Translations under genes and position numbers: made by a program
Shown here: one piece after another, positions 6,054-21,399 of the stretch
Position numbering within the stretch: the first letter of the stretch is position 1
Layout of the letters: the number at the start of each line of letters is the position of its first letter
Notes under the pieces: model-generated
Database searches by the model: none
Told to the model about the DNA's origin: nothing
What the model saw: only the letters and a program-made list of their open reading frames with translations
Source of the DNA: Actinomycetes bacterium
GTDB taxonomy: Bacteria; Actinomycetota; Actinomycetes; S36-B12; UBA10799
Direction of reading: 5' to 3'
Length of the DNA stretch: 22,844 nucleotides
NCBI GenBank assembly: GCA_029779995.1
Contig: JAKOZM010000229.1
Location: forward strand, 1-22,844

Positions 6054-8270
6054 TCAGTTCTGCAACTGCGGAACCGACACGCCCGCGTGCCACATGGCCA
6101 GGCAGGCATCGGCGCTGGTGGGCGCGCTGAACAGGAAACCCTGGCCGATGCGCACGCCCTCGTGCAGCAGGACGCGGGCCTGTGCGATGGTCTCCACCCC
6201 CTCAGCCAGGGTCTCCAGCTCGAGAGCGCGGGCCAGGGCCACGATGGTGCGCACGATCTCCAAAGTCTCGTTCGACTGCCCCAGGCCGACGACGAAGGCG
6301 CGATCGATCTTGAGTTGCTGAGCCGGCAGGTCCGCCAGCCGGGACAGGGAGGAGAACCCCGTCCCGAAGTCATCGATGCTGATGCTCATCCCCAGCGCCC
6401 GGATCCGGTCCAGTTCGCGCTGAGCGCGTACGCCCATGGCTGCGGCCTCCGTGACCTCGATCATCAACCACTCCGGTGAGGTGCCGGTGTCCTGCAGGAT
6501 CCCGGTGATGACATCGGCGAAGCCCGTCTCGAGTTGCTGAGCGTCCACGTTGACCGCGACGACGGCTGGCACCTCCTGGCGCCAGCGCCGCACCACCAGA
6601 CATGACTCGCGCAAGATCCAGCGGCCGAGGTCAGGCATCAGCTTGTAGGCCGTAGCCACCGGCAGGAATTCGGCGGGAGAAACGAGCTCACCATCGCGAT
6701 TCCAGCGGATCAACGCCTCGGCCGCGACCAGCCGACCCGACACCATGTCCACCTGCGGCTGGAAGTCCACCGTGAAGTGCGCCGCGGGATCCCGCATCGC
6801 GGCCCGGAAGGCGCGCCCGATCTGTTGCTCGCGGGCCGCGTGCGCGGCCATGCCCTGGTCGAAGCGCACCACGGAGTTCCCAGGCATCTCCTTGGCAGCG
6901 CGAACGGCGACGTCCGCATTCGTGATCAGGGTGTCCAGGTTGTGGCCGTCCTGCGGGCGCAGAGCGACGCCGATGGATGAGCTCAAAGCGATGTCCCGGT
7001 CACCGATCGGGATGGGCTCTTCGATCAGAGCCTGGACCGATGCGGTGATGTCGTCCACGGATCCCAGATCGAGGGCTCGCATGACGACGAACTGATCGCC
7101 GGAGATGCGGGCCACCACGCAGTCGCGGTCGTCGATCAGCGAGGACAACCGGTGAGCGATCTGGCGCAGCACGAGATCACCGCTGAGGTGTCCCCAACGG
7201 GTGTTGACCTCCTTGAAACCGTCGAGGTCGATGGACAGTACCGCCAACGGTCGCCCGCCAGCCCGGCTGTCCCACTCCTCGAGCCAACTGCGCAGACCGT
7301 CACGGTGCGTCAACCCTGTGAGCGCGTCGCGTTCGGCCAGGAAACGCAGCCGGTTCGTGGCTTGCTGCAGGTCGTCGGCGGTGCCCTTGACCCGCCGGGA
7401 ATGGACCCAGATGACGGCACACAGACCCGCGGTGACCAGCAGGCCTGCCAGCAGCCAGGCCCAGGGGCGCCAGGGCTGAGCTGCGGTCGTCATCGCCGGC
7501 CCGGGACCGCCGGTGACCGTCAGGGTCTGCAGGTCGGACATGGGCAGATCGACTCTGATCGTCTGATCGCTGACGGGCAGATTGCCGCTTGCCCACAAGA
7601 CCTCGTAGGGGGTGACGCTCTCGTCGAGCAGGGACATCGCGTAGGTGTCGTCGGCCCCCTGAGTGGCGTCCAGCCACCCCCAGATATCGACGCCGGCGAC
7701 CACGACACCGGTGAACGTGCCCGCCTGGAACAGGGGTGTGTAGGCGAACACTTGCGATGAGCCGCCGAGGGGACTGCTGCGCCGCGCGACCATGACCGTG
7801 TCGCGGCTGGATCTGGCCAGTTCAGTGGCCTTGGCGCTCACCGGATCGGAGGCCAGGTCGAACCCGCGTAGGTTCGCGGGGGCGCCGCTGGCCAGGTATT
7901 CCACCACCAGGGAGCTGGCCCTCGGTGCCGCGAAAAGGACTCCGGTGAGGTCTTCGCGCTGGTCGAAGGTGACGGCGCTGAACTGGGCGAACTCGGCTTC
8001 TGAAACGGGTTGCGTCACGGCGTAGAACGCGGGAAACGCGGCCATCGCGCCACGCAGTGACCCCAAGGACCGGGCAGCGGTTTGCGCCGTGGAGCTGACC
8101 ACCGCTTGTACCGAGTCATGCGTTTGGCCGTGGATCGCTCGCTGCTGGCGCTGCATCAGCCCAATGCTGACCAGGGTTCCGAGCAGGGCGACCAGGACAA
8201 CCGGCACGGCGTACCGCCAGCCGGATGCCGAATCCCTGTCCGGTTTCGAGCGCCCCACGTGGCTAATCAT
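6054..8270 (-). CDS. CHASE-GGDEF-EAL membrane protein, probable c-di-GMP phosphodiesterase
   Basis: The 738-residue protein has a transmembrane segment (about 20-39), an extracytoplasmic CHASE-like sensor (about 70-250), a second membrane segment (about 268-290), then GGDEF (about 310-470) and EAL (about 485-735) domains. The GGDEF signature reads SGDQF (390-394), so cyclase activity is unlikely, although this domain may still bind GTP. The EAL domain keeps every catalytic landmark I can check: EAL (518-520), N574, E605/E608, DDFGTG (633-638), K654, AEGVET (689-694) and Q710. This predicts cleavage of c-di-GMP to pGpG, controlled by a ligand sensed outside the membrane. The start at 8270 has only a weak AGGT-like site upstream. 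The gene is divergent from the PLC-domain gene, 53 bp away. Confidence 0.9.
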   Translation of the reverse strand: MISHVGRSKPDRDSASGWRYAVPVVLVALLGTLVSIGLMQRQQRAIHGQTHDSVQAVVSSTAQTAARSLGSLRGAMAAFPAFYAVTQPVSEAEFAQFSAVTFDQREDLTGVLFAAPRASSLVVEYLASGAPANLRGFDLASDPVSAKATELARSSRDTVMVARRSSPLGGSSQVFAYTPLFQAGTFTGVVVAGVDIWGWLDATQGADDTYAMSLLDESVTPYEVLWASGNLPVSDQTIRVDLPMSDLQTLTVTGGPGPAMTTAAQPWRPWAWLLAGLLVTAGLCAVIWVHSRRVKGTADDLQQATNRLRFLAERDALTGLTHRDGLRSWLEEWDSRAGGRPLAVLSIDLDGFKEVNTRWGHLSGDLVLRQIAHRLSSLIDDRDCVVARISGDQFVVMRALDLGSVDDITASVQALIEEPIPIGDRDIALSSSIGVALRPQDGHNLDTLITNADVAVRAAKEMPGNSVVRFDQGMAAHAAREQQIGRAFRAAMRDPAAHFTVDFQPQVDMVSGRLVAAEALIRWNRDGELVSPAEFLPVATAYKLMPDLGRWILRESCLVVRRWRQEVPAVVAVNVDAQQLETGFADVITGILQDTGTSPEWLMIEVTEAAAMGVRAQRELDRIRALGMSISIDDFGTGFSSLSRLADLPAQQLKIDRAFVVGLGQSNETLEIVRTIVALARALELETLAEGVETIAQARVLLHEGVRIGQGFLFSAPTSADACLAMWHAGVSVPQLQN

Positions 8271-15766: not shown

Positions 15767-15772
15767 ATGGGT

Positions 15773-17237
<1,465 letters not shown>

Positions 17238-17238
<1 letters not shown>

Positions 17239-17648
17239 TGGCAACAGCACAGGGATTACAGCGCACGTTCGGGACGTGGTCTGCGGTGAGTCTCATCTCC
17301 GGTGCGGCGCTGTGGGCAGGCGGCAGGAACGACCCGGCGCGCAGGTTTGGCCGACAGACATTCGCCTGGGGTGTCATCAATGCGGGGATTGCTGCGTGGA
17401 CCAGTTCCCGGCCCACGCCTACGACAGCACGGCTTCGCCGGATCCTGCTCGTCAATGCGGTCGCCGATGTCGGTTACATGACGGTCGGGGCCGCTCTTTA
17501 CCGAAAAGGCCTGCGGCCAGACGGGGCGGCGGTCATGGTGCAAGGCGCCTTCCTACTCGCGCTGGACACCCACTTCGCGTACCACTTGGACGACAATGCA
17601 CCACCAGACCCGTGGGACGACGTGGAACCTGACGCCTTAGCAGGCTGA
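17238..17648 (+). CDS. Small membrane protein (possibly DUF6992-like)
   Basis: This 136-residue protein has about four hydrophobic segments: residues 11-28, 41-56, 69-87 and 97-112. The R-L-R-R-I-L-L-V-N-A-V-A-D-V-G-Y-M segment (65-81) and the W-G-V-I-N-A-G-I-A-A-W segment recall a small membrane family I think is DUF6992, but I am not certain. The tail is acidic and likely cytosolic. The gene is coupled to DUF5522 by a 1-nt overlap and a good ribosome binding site. It ends 40 bp before amrS, which has its own promoter, so any link to the downstream system is only positional. Confidence 0.75.
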
Positions 17649-17688: not shown

Positions 17689-18756
17689 GTGGGGGCGCAC
17701 GAGACGTTGTACTGGCACCTGCGCGACGACGGTCGCGTGCAATGCGATGTGTGTCCGCGCGCGTGCCGCCTCCATGATGGCCAGCGTGGCCTGTGCTTCG
17801 TGCGGGCTCGTGAACACGACATGATCGTCAGCAGCACTTACGGCCGGTCCAGTGGATACTGCATCGATCCCATCGAGAAGAAACCCCTCAACCACTTTCT
17901 GCCCGGTACCCCCGTACTCAGTTTCGGTACCGCGGGCTGCAACCTGACCTGCAAGTTCTGCCAGAACTGGGACATCTCCAAGTCCCGCGACATCGACAGC
18001 CTGTCCGATGAGGCCAGCCCCGAGCAGATCGCCGACGCCGCGGTGCGCTTCGGGTGCACGAGCGTGGCGTTCACCTACAACGACCCGGTTGTCTTCTTGG
18101 AGTACGCCGTGGACACCGCGCAGGTGTGCCGGGAGCGTGGCATCAAATCTGTCGCGGTGACCGCCGGATACGTCGAGGCCCGCCCCCGCGCGGAGCTGTT
18201 CGGCGCCATGGACGCCATCAACATCGATCTCAAGGGATTCACGCAGGAGTATTACCGCAGTGTGTGTGGGGGCAGCTTGGCAACAGTGTTGGAAAGCATC
18301 GAATGGGCCGTGCATGAGAGTCCCGCTTGGGTCGAACTGACGACGCTGATCGTGCCCGGTCACAACGACTCCGACGCTGAACTCGATCGGCTGACGCGGT
18401 GGGTCGCCGACCACTGCGGGCCTGATGTGCCGATGCACTTCAGCGCATTCCACCCCGATTGGAAGATGCTGGACACCCCACCGACTCCGCCCGAGACCTT
18501 GTCCCGCGCCCGGCAGATCGCACGGTCCAACGGCATCCGCTACGCCTACACCGGCAACGTGCACGATGCCGAGGGTGACACCACGTTCTGCCCGGGCTGC
18601 AACGCAGCTGTCATCGAGCGGGACTGGTACGAGGTGCTCTCCTTCGACCTCGTCGAGGGCCGGTGTCAAACCTGTGGGACGGATATCGCCGGGGTGTTCC
18701 AGACGGTGCCCGGTTCCTGGGGTCGGCGACGGCTGCCGGTGCGACTGCACGGATAG
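17689..18756 (+). CDS. amrS: AmmeMemoRadiSam system radical SAM enzyme
   Basis: The 355-residue protein belongs to the radical SAM family that occurs with AMMECR1 and Memo homologues (TIGR04337 type, related to pyruvate formate-lyase activases). The 4Fe-4S motif is C84-x-x-x-C88-x-x-C91 within G-C-N-L-T-C-K-F-C-Q-N-W. An N-terminal set of four cysteines (C19, C22, C26, C36) and a C-terminal pair of CxxC motifs (C301/C304 and C326/C329, rubredoxin- or zinc-ribbon-like) are typical of this subgroup. Conserved segments A-F-T-Y-N-D-P, D-L-K-G-F and H-F-S-A-F-H-P-D are intact. It should cleave SAM to a 5'-deoxyadenosyl radical, on a substrate not established to my knowledge. GTG at 17689 is the start. 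The gene is followed after 9 bp by the acyl-CoA ligase gene, then amrB and amrA. Confidence 0.93.
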   Translation: MGAHETLYWHLRDDGRVQCDVCPRACRLHDGQRGLCFVRAREHDMIVSSTYGRSSGYCIDPIEKKPLNHFLPGTPVLSFGTAGCNLTCKFCQNWDISKSRDIDSLSDEASPEQIADAAVRFGCTSVAFTYNDPVVFLEYAVDTAQVCRERGIKSVAVTAGYVEARPRAELFGAMDAINIDLKGFTQEYYRSVCGGSLATVLESIEWAVHESPAWVELTTLIVPGHNDSDAELDRLTRWVADHCGPDVPMHFSAFHPDWKMLDTPPTPPETLSRARQIARSNGIRYAYTGNVHDAEGDTTFCPGCNAAVIERDWYEVLSFDLVEGRCQTCGTDIAGVFQTVPGSWGRRRLPVRLHG

Positions 18757-18759
18757 CCT
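18754..18759 (+). promoter_or_regulatory. -10 box of the acyl-CoA ligase gene, built on the amrS stop codon
   Basis: TAGCCT begins with the TAG stop codon of amrS and is followed by 6 nt (GCTGAC) and the ATG at 18766. This would allow leaderless expression of the ligase, amrB and amrA independently of amrS. Confidence 0.5.
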
Positions 18760-18765
18760 GCTGAC

Positions 18766-20103
18766 ATGTACGTCCTGACCGCCGCGGAGTACCAACGCCT
18801 CGCCGAGCGGGCCGCCGCCGGGCTGTCGCAACGGGGACTACGCCCCGGCGACCGGGTGGCGATCGTGACCCCCGAGCACCGCTACCCGCAGGCGGAAGCC
18901 GCAGTGCTGCAGTCCCGGGTGATCGCCATCGTGGCGGCCGCGCTGCGGTCGGGGATGGTGCCGGTGCCGATCAACCCGCTGCTCACCGACGCAGAACGGG
19001 CCCACATCATCACGGACAGCGGGGCCAGCGTCACGATCTCAGAGGCCGCCGACATCCTGGCCTTGACCCAGGCAACCGGCCCGGCTCCCGAGTTGTCCGA
19101 GTGGCCGATCGGGCGTCCCATGCACTACACCTCCGGTACGACCGGCCGGCCGAAGGGCGTCTACACCCAGGGCATCGGTGAGCCCCTGACCGAGGCCCTG
19201 TGGCGTGACGAGATCGACCATTGGGAGTTCACGGCCGATGACGTGACCCTCGTCCACGGTCCGCTGTGCCATGCCGCGCCACTGCGCTACGCGATGGCGG
19301 TCCTGCACGTGGGTGGTGCGGCTGTTCTCCCGGGCGAGTTCGACGCGCCGAGCATCGTGCGGGCGATGGCCGACCATCGGCCCACGCACGCCTTCCTCGT
19401 CCCCAGCCACCTACAGCGCCTGTTCCAAGGGGATCTGCCAGCCAGTCCCTACCGGCTGATCACCCATGCCGGTGCGGCTTGTCCTCCGAGCATCAAGCGC
19501 CGCCTGCACGACTGGGCCGGGACCGAACATGTGTGGGAGTTCTACGGCTCCACCGAAGGTCAGTTCACCGTCTGCCCCGGGGCGTCCTGGGAGGATCACG
19601 TGGGGACCGTCGGCGTCGCGCGACCTGGCCGCCGCCTGGCGATCAGGGACGGCATCATCTGGTGTCACACCCCCGCCTTCGCGCGGTTTGAATACTGGAA
19701 CGACCCCGTGAAGACCGCGGCCGCCTGGGCCGGTGACGCCTTCTCCGTGGGTGACCTGGGTCGGCTCGATGGCGAGTACCTCTTCCTGGAGGGCCGCCGA
19801 GAGGACCTGATCATCACCGGCGGCGTGAACGTGTATCCAGCGGAGGTCGAGGCGGTCCTGCTCGAGTGCCCGGGGGTCAGCGAGGTCGCGGTGTTCGGCC
19901 GTGACGACCCGCGTTGGGGACAGCGGGTATGCGCGGCGTTCACGGGTGAGGCTGCTCCGGCCGACGTCCACGAGTGGGCCCGGCGTTGTCTTGCCGCCTA
20001 CAAGCGCCCCAAGGACCTTGAACACCACACCGACCTGCCCCACAACGCCAGCGGGAAGGTGGAGCGACTGCTGCTCGCAGGGGGTCCAGATGGCCGTGCG
20101 TGA
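18766..20103 (+). CDS. AMP-forming acyl-CoA synthetase (ANL superfamily) inside the AmmeMemoRadiSam cluster
   Basis: The protein has 445 residues and all main ANL core motifs: P-loop Y-T-S-G-T-T-G-R-P-K-G (121-131), Y-G-S-T-E-G (260-265), G-D-L-G-R-L-D-G (329-336), hinge R-x-x-D-L-I-I-T-G-G (345-354) and the catalytic Lys in N-A-S-G-K (K431). It should activate a carboxylic acid with ATP and pass it to CoA or a similar thiol. It is shorter than the usual 500-550 residues. The P-loop begins at residue 121, so the N-terminal subdomain is trimmed although its start looks natural (L-R-P-G-D-R-V-A). The acid cannot be predicted. It ends 14 bases inside amrB, which points to a joint role with the AmmeMemoRadiSam proteins. 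Confidence 0.9.
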   Translation: MYVLTAAEYQRLAERAAAGLSQRGLRPGDRVAIVTPEHRYPQAEAAVLQSRVIAIVAAALRSGMVPVPINPLLTDAERAHIITDSGASVTISEAADILALTQATGPAPELSEWPIGRPMHYTSGTTGRPKGVYTQGIGEPLTEALWRDEIDHWEFTADDVTLVHGPLCHAAPLRYAMAVLHVGGAAVLPGEFDAPSIVRAMADHRPTHAFLVPSHLQRLFQGDLPASPYRLITHAGAACPPSIKRRLHDWAGTEHVWEFYGSTEGQFTVCPGASWEDHVGTVGVARPGRRLAIRDGIIWCHTPAFARFEYWNDPVKTAAAWAGDAFSVGDLGRLDGEYLFLEGRREDLIITGGVNVYPAEVEAVLLECPGVSEVAVFGRDDPRWGQRVCAAFTGEAAPADVHEWARRCLAAYKRPKDLEHHTDLPHNASGKVERLLLAGGPDGRA

Positions 20104-20857
20104 ACCTGCTGTGGCGGGCCGCTTCTACGCCGCAGATCCTGACGAGCTGCGCCGGGAGGTGTCGGAGCACTTTGCCGCTGTCACTGTTGCCCTGCCCGGC
20201 CAGCCGCCCGGTGTCATCGTCCCGCACGCGGGGCACATCTACTCGGGGCCGGTCGCGGCGACGGCCTACGCGCAATTGCACACTGCCCAGCGGGTGGTCA
20301 TCGCAGGTCCCGCCCACTACGTACCCGTCGCGGGCCTGGTCGCACCCAGGGCGCAGGCGTGGCGCACACCCCTGGGCCTGGTCGAGATTGACGAAGGTGG
20401 CATCGGTGACGCCGGTCTTCCTCGAGACGACTACCCCCACGCCCCCGAGCACAGCCTCGAGGTGCAGTTGCCCTTCTTGCAGGAGCAGTTGGCCCCGGGC
20501 TGGCGTCTGCTGCCCATCCTGGTGGGTCGGGCTGAACCCAGTGAGGTCGCCGATGTGCTGCAGCCGTTCCTCGCCGATCCGGGGACCGTTGTGGTCCTGT
20601 CCACCGACCTGTCGCACTACCACCGGTACGAGACGGCGGTCGGCCAGGATCGCGCCACAGCCCAGCGCATCGTGAGCCGCGACTGGCAGGGCATAGCCGA
20701 CGACGATGCGTGCGGCGCCTATCCGTTGCGGGGTCTGCTGCTGGCTGCGCAAAGGATGGGCCGGGGAATCGTGCAACTCGACCTGCGCAACTCCGGCGAC
20801 ACGGCGGGCCCGCACGATCGTGTGGTGGGATACGGCGCCTTCGCGGTGGGGCCTTGA
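20090..20857 (+). CDS. amrB: AmmeMemoRadiSam system protein B (Memo-like)
   Basis: This 255-residue protein matches the MEMO family (TIGR04336). It begins with R-E-P-A-V-A-G-R-F-Y, has the metal-site motif P-H-A-G-H-I-Y-S-G (H46, H49), then G-P-A-H-Y (H76), S-L-E-V-Q-L-P-F-L, S-T-D-L-S-H-Y and C208 in A-C-G-A-Y-P-L. The His and Cys positions correspond to those that form the active-site-like cavity of human MEMO1, which is related in fold to class III dioxygenases. Its reaction here is unknown. The ATG at 20090 overlaps the ligase gene by 14 bases and is preceded by AGGGGG (20079-20084) with a 5-nt gap, which fixes the start. The stop overlaps the amrA start by one base. Confidence 0.93.
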   Translation: MAVREPAVAGRFYAADPDELRREVSEHFAAVTVALPGQPPGVIVPHAGHIYSGPVAATAYAQLHTAQRVVIAGPAHYVPVAGLVAPRAQAWRTPLGLVEIDEGGIGDAGLPRDDYPHAPEHSLEVQLPFLQEQLAPGWRLLPILVGRAEPSEVADVLQPFLADPGTVVVLSTDLSHYHRYETAVGQDRATAQRIVSRDWQGIADDDACGAYPLRGLLLAAQRMGRGIVQLDLRNSGDTAGPHDRVVGYGAFAVGP

Positions 20858-21399
20858 TGTTCACCCCCCAACAGCGCCGCGAGATGCTGGACCTGGCCAT
20901 CACCAGCATCGAGGCGGCGCTGCGCACTGGCGCCCGGCCGACTCCCGGTCAGCTCCCGGATTACCTGCAGGAATGGGGCGCGTCGTTCGTCACCCTGCGC
21001 CGGCGCGGTGAACTGCTCGGCTGTATCGGGGCGCTCGAGGCCTATCAGCCACTGGGCCGCGACATCGCCACACACGCCGTGGCGGCGGCGTTCGATGACC
21101 CGCGGTTCCCGCCGCTCGACACCTTGGAGGGCGTGCATGTCGAGATCAGCGTTCTGGGCGAACTGATCCCGTTTGCCGCCGACTCCTACCTCGACGTCGT
21201 GCGGCGCCTGCCGCGCGCCGGCGCCGTGGTCGAGGCGCGTGGTCGGCGCGGCACCTTCCTGCCTGCCGTGTGGGAGCAACTACCCACGGCCGATGATTTC
21301 GTCGCGGGTCTGTGGCGCAAGGCGAGCCTGCCTCCCCAGACCTGGCCGGTGGCGTTATGGACCTACGAGGTGGAGGAGTTCGGCACTGACGTCGGGTAG
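20857..21399 (+). CDS. amrA: AmmeMemoRadiSam system protein A (AMMECR1 domain)
   Basis: This 180-residue protein is one AMMECR1 domain, the standard size. It carries the invariant segment L-L-G-C-I-G (usually L-R-G-C-I-G) and the following A-x-x-A-A-F-D-D-P-R-F-P-P-L, then V-H-V-E-I-S-V-L-G-E. AMMECR1 is the human homologue named after an Alport-syndrome contiguous deletion, and its molecular role is unknown. The ATG at 20857 overlaps the amrB stop (TGATG), so translation is coupled. It closes the block amrS-ligase-amrB-amrA. The last 37 bases overlap the convergent SDR gene. Confidence 0.92.
   Translation: MFTPQQRREMLDLAITSIEAALRTGARPTPGQLPDYLQEWGASFVTLRRRGELLGCIGALEAYQPLGRDIATHAVAAAFDDPRFPPLDTLEGVHVEISVLGELIPFAADSYLDVVRRLPRAGAVVEARGRRGTFLPAVWEQLPTADDFVAGLWRKASLPPQTWPVALWTYEVEEFGTDVG

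Follow-up and report, generated by a model that had tools for sequence, protein, structure and literature searches.

In the 22,844-nucleotide contig JAKOZM010000229.1 of an Actinomycetes bacterium (assembly GCA_029779995.1; this whole stretch is called the window), the AmmeMemoRadiSam genes amrS, amrB and amrA are joined by a fourth gene. A gene for a ligase of the ANL superfamily lies between amrS and amrB and overlaps the start of the latter. Linkage of this ligase to amrB recurs on other contigs more often than chance allows. By sequence comparison, it looks like a single, old capture of the ligase by a Nanopelagicales-like actinobacterial lineage, retained down to approximately 62% identity. 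The age and conservation of the arrangement suggest that the ligase works with the Amr cluster. The features of the locus are as follows.

17689..18756, + strand: amrS, a radical S-adenosylmethionine (SAM) enzyme of 355 residues with a GTG start and the motif CX3CX2C at residues 84-91 (TIGR04337, 601.6 bits; cut-off 220).
18766..20103, + strand: ANL-superfamily enzyme of the acyl/aryl-coenzyme A (CoA) ligase type, 445 residues (PF00501, PF13193, ANL motifs, AlphaFold2 model).
20090..20103, + strand: overlap of the ligase end and the amrB start, 14 nucleotides (read from the sequence; protein ends from other contigs are compatible with the same overlap).
20090..20857, + strand: amrB, a Memo-like protein of 255 residues whose start codon lies 14 nucleotides inside the ligase gene; putative metal ligands H46, H76 and C208 (TIGR04336, 231.5 bits; cut-off 26).
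20857..21399, + strand: amrA, an AMMECR1-like protein of 180 residues with a 1-nucleotide overlap with amrB (TIGR04335, 142.9 bits; cut-off 99).

The gene order amrS, ligase, amrB, amrA and the gaps of 9, -14 and -1 nucleotides given in the first-pass annotation are exact, and all of these genes are supported by profile scores. As in the AmmeMemoRadiSam system defined by TIGR04335, TIGR04336 and TIGR04337, all three proteins are encoded next to each other on the same strand, and in the profile search each exceeds its NCBIfam cut-off. The locus differs from this system by the ligase gene inserted between amrS and amrB. The radical SAM motif of the window AmrS reads CNLTCKFC from residue 84.

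Linkage in relatives was scored as an identical contig size in the match lists for the ligase, AmrB and AmrS, each protein cluster being represented by its longest contig. Adjacency in relatives rests on these matching sizes together with the dual coding of protein ends described below. Among the 44 listed ligases that are at least 67% identical to the window ligase, 15 have exactly the contig size of an AmrB, in every case one of the best 62 AmrB proteins. The chance level for such matches, estimated by random jitter of the sizes in 5,000 trials, has a mean of 0.23 and a maximum of 3. Seven of the 44 match the AmrS list (jitter mean 0.48, maximum 4). The 76 listed ligases below 67% identity include one match to the AmrB list (mean 0.73) and none to the AmrS list. 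Since seven of the 15 matched ligase/AmrB contigs are only 2.8 to 5.2 kb in size, the linkage is tight there. In one pair, ligase P0015 and AmrB P0173, both same-size contigs are labelled Candidatus Nanopelagicales. Two further ligases are linked through AmrS (P0023, which also matches a second AmrS at 70%, and P0039), which brings the number of linked ligases to 17. P0031 has the same contig size, 2,406, as an AmrS that is only 69% identical; we treated this as a chance match and excluded it. The measure was calibrated with 29 clade AmrS proteins, cut at 73% identity and up (a threshold of our choosing), all of which keep the CX3CX2C motif. Six of them match the contig of a clade AmrB and six that of a clade ligase. 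By this measure, therefore, the ligase accompanies AmrS as constantly as AmrB does.

The second line of evidence does not depend on contig matching. The dual-coding test determines whether any DNA can encode the end of a given ligase and the start of a given AmrB in overlapping frames. This is possible for all 16 ligase/AmrB pairs, counting that of the window. A 4-nucleotide overlap is a weak constraint, being the longest possible one in 917 of 1,232 pairs formed by unlinked ligases and the same AmrB proteins. An overlap of at least 14 nucleotides can be encoded by 9 of the 16 linked pairs, as compared to 29 of 240 mismatched pairs from the clade and 3 of the 1,232 unlinked pairs. The strongest case is made by five AmrB proteins with a predicted start 15 codons upstream: the residues added in this way could be encoded together with a ligase C-terminus read in the second frame across 59 nucleotides, which corresponds to the 14 nucleotides in the window plus 45. 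We attribute these N-terminal extensions to the gene caller. Each of the five fits exactly one of 120 ligases, shuffled ends fit in 0 of 4,400 cases, and two of the five are also paired with that same ligase by contig (P0134/P0006 and P0123/P0010). The reading frames of the ligase and amrB are probably translation-coupled.

A ligase tree, suggested as a check in the first-pass annotation, places all 17 linked ligases in one group of 44 among 178 rows and none among the other 134. This group comprises the window ligase and P0001-P0043; 43 rows are held together at a Shimodaira-Hasegawa-like approximate likelihood ratio (SH-aLRT) of 99, and P0043 joins at 82. P0047 (325 residues) was omitted because of its length, and at least nine of the other 134 rows are wrong-frame open reading frames (ORFs; L001, L044, L048, L049, L053, L057, L060, L063 and L065). 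The AmrB tree likewise unites the 15 linked AmrB proteins (62 rows at 94/95, with P0182 joining at 90/55), and the AmrB proteins of five actinobacterial genomes that occur there without the ligase branch outside this group. Pairwise ligase and AmrB distances correlate with r 0.81 (reached in 0 of 5,000 permutations) and with r 0.70 when P0043 is left out. The first-pass annotation had named confinement to this genome or its close relatives as an outcome that would speak against a working link. The association extends across a clade in which pairwise ligase identity falls to 62% (17 of 44 by contig), and among the loci compared, 53 further amrS loci included, it is found in that clade alone.

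The ligase itself appears to be an intact member of its superfamily. The window protein matches the Pfam domains AMP-binding (152.1 bits; cut-off 29.9) and AMP-binding_C (62.1 bits; cut-off 24.5), the ANL motifs A3, A5, A7, A8 and A10 are intact in 43-44 of the 44 clade rows, and the catalytic lysine (K431) is invariant across 19 sequences. The AlphaFold2 model has a pLDDT (predicted local distance difference test) of 91.7, and its best match in the PDB is MenE (5x8f/5x8g). Structurally, the model comes closest to CoA ligases such as MenE and 4-coumarate-CoA ligase, with aryl/acyl-CoA ligases ranking best. The fold and the ANL motifs are shared with MenE and with 4-coumarate-, feruloyl- and 4-chlorobenzoate-CoA ligases, but identity in structural alignments is only about 23-32%. 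From these nearest structures we infer that CoA would be the acyl acceptor; an aryl or similarly compact acid would be the substrate. No NCBIfam model reaches its cut-off for the window ligase among the matches listed (25 of 94), nor for ten sampled relatives among the models listed at 1e-40. The first-pass annotation had set against its proposal the case that the nearest relatives are a known pathway enzyme unrelated to amr; these models give no such assignment. Alignment of the clade reveals 18 clade-specific positions, among them A170, Y175 and M177, which we take to lie beside the A4 motif. This motif is listed as part of the acyl pocket (PMC8388817). A hypergeometric test of the pocket residues gives p 0.014; since the segments were picked after the positions were known, we do not count this result as evidence.

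AmrB resembles human MEMO1, for which we know of no ligase context. The window AmrB aligns in phmmer with the equivalents of MEMO1 H49 and H81 (numbering by our own count); the third ligand, C244, lies outside this alignment and is matched to C208 of AmrB by motif only. In the clade, the motif ACG is present in 62 of 62 AmrB proteins and PHAGH in 61 of 62. According to one report, MEMO1 binds iron or copper through H49, H81 and C244, its fold is extradiol-dioxygenase-like with an iron site resembling that of extradiol dioxygenases, and its primary molecular function is called unknown (PMC11081632). Two precomputed or profile-based cases combine Memo with AMMECR1: P0183 is a fusion with both domains, and P0184 is likewise one by precomputed Pfam domains. 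An Ideonella plasmid also carries an amrB of 1,395 nucleotides (L155:3576-4970) that matches both. The Amr trio is already known; a conserved, overlapping fourth gene within it is not met in the literature searched, and the titles and abstract beginnings of the open-access papers listed yielded no description of a ligase in an amr cluster.

How might such a ligase contribute? In an ancestor of one Nanopelagicales-like lineage, a short ANL ligase from an ordinary actinobacterial family would have been placed between amrS and amrB. It would then have stayed in place, its frame overlapping that of amrB and probably coupled to it in translation, and may have joined the Amr pathway as a fourth, lineage-specific component. 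The enzyme would most likely adenylate a carboxylate with ATP and then pass the acyl group to CoA. The activated acid would be a substrate or product of the chemistry performed by AmrS, AmrA and AmrB, the last of these being a putative iron protein with the Memo/LigB fold. We favor the reading that the ligase attaches CoA to an acid which the Amr reaction either consumes or releases, with a confidence that stays slightly short of even; its link to Amr is what we infer from the gene arrangement. The stronger claim is distinctly more tentative: here the ligase would be a dedicated fourth Amr enzyme, the Amr substrate or product a carboxylic acid, and the CoA thioester of this acid an obligate intermediate.

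Several points weigh against this proposal. Equal contig size does not prove that two genes are on the same contig. Only 15 of the 62 clade AmrB proteins match a ligase by contig. Six contig sizes are shared by an AmrS and an AmrB of the clade; a ligase matches four of them, and none is listed for the other two (10,262 and 37,128 bases). The ligase may therefore be absent from some clade members, even though the match lists are partial and a missing match does not prove absence. The outliers join their groups weakly (ligase P0043 at SH-aLRT 82, AmrB P0182 at 90/55). The correlation of ligase and AmrB distances would also follow from plain vertical descent, and the argument from pocket residues was made post hoc. 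Conserved linkage demonstrates that the genes are inherited together and probably co-expressed; it does not demonstrate that they share a reaction, and we know of no established reaction for AmrS, AmrB and AmrA. Finally, at 53 amrS loci outside the clade, the cluster neither contains nor adjoins an ANL gene (18 of these loci have a recognisable amrB). This set comprises eight actinobacterial loci, five of six plasmid matches and 40 loci from 39 genomes that top the list for the phylum of G523, a metagenome-assembled genome (MAG) titled Deltaproteobacteria. At three of the 53, an ANL gene is 4.1 to 5.6 kb off, centre to centre. The comparison of amrS neighbourhoods proposed in the first-pass annotation thus gave no further case beyond the clade. 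It follows that the ligase is dispensable for Amr chemistry at large; it looks like a lineage-specific accessory rather than a general Amr part.

The same observations fit an explanation that we consider almost as likely as CoA activation for Amr. The ligase could be a passenger that keeps an unrelated job, such as the activation of fatty or aromatic acids, and shares the amr transcript after one insertion, with an overlap that is hard to lose. The single origin in one ligase clade and the 53 loci without an ANL gene are in line with this possibility, as are the ligase's relatives. The window ligase belongs to an unnamed family of short actinobacterial ANL ligases (Nocardioides, Aeromicrobium, Blastococcus and others; 42-62% identity, mostly about 420-480 residues, same motifs). 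A family-wide alignment scan of genome contigs gave at least 516 loci, the best 80 of which (42-56% identity, many on short contigs) differ from the window in having no amr match within the DNA available per locus. They often lie near S1 (31 of 80) or CoaE genes (32 of 80). A scan of viral contigs found no relative. The wider family therefore has a function independent of Amr. By its TypA protein the window is closest to G024 (85% identity), the best of 394 genomes sampled evenly across the class, 385 of which matched at 1e-200. G024 shares its order with G001, a MAG titled Candidatus Nanopelagicales. Of 166 genomes in this order, 41 have an AmrS match at 1e-3. Only two of these matches are strong, and neither of the two genomes has the ligase in its amr cluster; one of them, G022, encodes a 48% identical ligase on another contig. 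Against a mere passenger, linkage and overlap have been retained over a clade reaching 62% ligase identity, which suggests selection on the arrangement. The 18 clade-specific positions also suggest selection, but both observations are compatible with a passenger all the same.

More broadly, AmrS is found at 1e-60 in 5 of 394 sampled genomes from the class, one of them (G494) only 38% identical, and in 269 of 297 genomes from the phylum of G523. Many genomes in this phylum have several amrS genes, and 30 of the 40 fetched loci are without a match to the window AmrB; paralogy or divergence is possible. Around the plasmid amrS matches L156 (Sinorhizobium), L157 (Mycobacterium) and L158 (Methylocystis), neither amrB nor amrA is matched within about 6 kb, and no gene is annotated beneath these amrS matches. 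Some titles in the ligase set may be mislabelled: L005 and L022 are titled Bifidobacterium breve, yet their ligases group with those of other actinobacterial MAGs, and L044, titled Bacillus sp. AZ43, matches the actinobacterial ligase family at 49%.

Two other assignments are less probable than either CoA activation for Amr or a passenger. Transfer of the acyl-adenylate to an amine, a carrier or a protein instead of CoA, the way McbA-type amide synthetases work, is improbable. It is very unlikely that the ligase is the organism's o-succinylbenzoate-CoA ligase, MenE: B. subtilis MenE ranks first in the structure search and the TIGR01923 alignment is full-length, but the score is 166.3 bits against a cut-off of 330, other ANL genes outscore the family member in G024 (246 vs 172), G001, G002 and G004, and the scanned window ORFs include no recognisable men gene. 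Since no gene in 12 relatives passes the TIGR01923 cut-off, this cut-off itself says little here. The ligase also scores below the cut-off for the fatty-acid-CoA ligase FadD4 (NF038341, 200.3 bits; cut-off 850).

Two genes on the same strand directly precede amrS.

16936..17238, + strand: DUF5522 small protein (PF17653, 78.9 bits).
17205..17648, + strand: DUF6992 protein, 40 nucleotides upstream of amrS (PF22503, 69.4 bits).

They may form one transcription unit with the amr genes, of which the DUF5522 gene is the possible first. Elsewhere, the window contains two genes of the DUF222/HNH type (88-1302, - strand; 15767-16882, + strand, with an HNH match just below the cut-off) and a GGDEF-EAL cyclic-di-GMP protein (6054-8270, - strand) with a CHASE match just below the cut-off.

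AmrS, AmrB and AmrA form a widespread trio, and the human relatives of AmrB and AmrA, MEMO1 and AMMECR1, are of unknown molecular function. ANL ligases, on the other hand, are standard enzymes to assay. If the ligase is in the same pathway, a screen for its acid substrate would offer a direct route to Amr chemistry. Should it be a dedicated fourth enzyme, the range of acids it accepts would show which chemistry AmrS, AmrB and AmrA, and with them the MEMO1 and AMMECR1 families, carry out.
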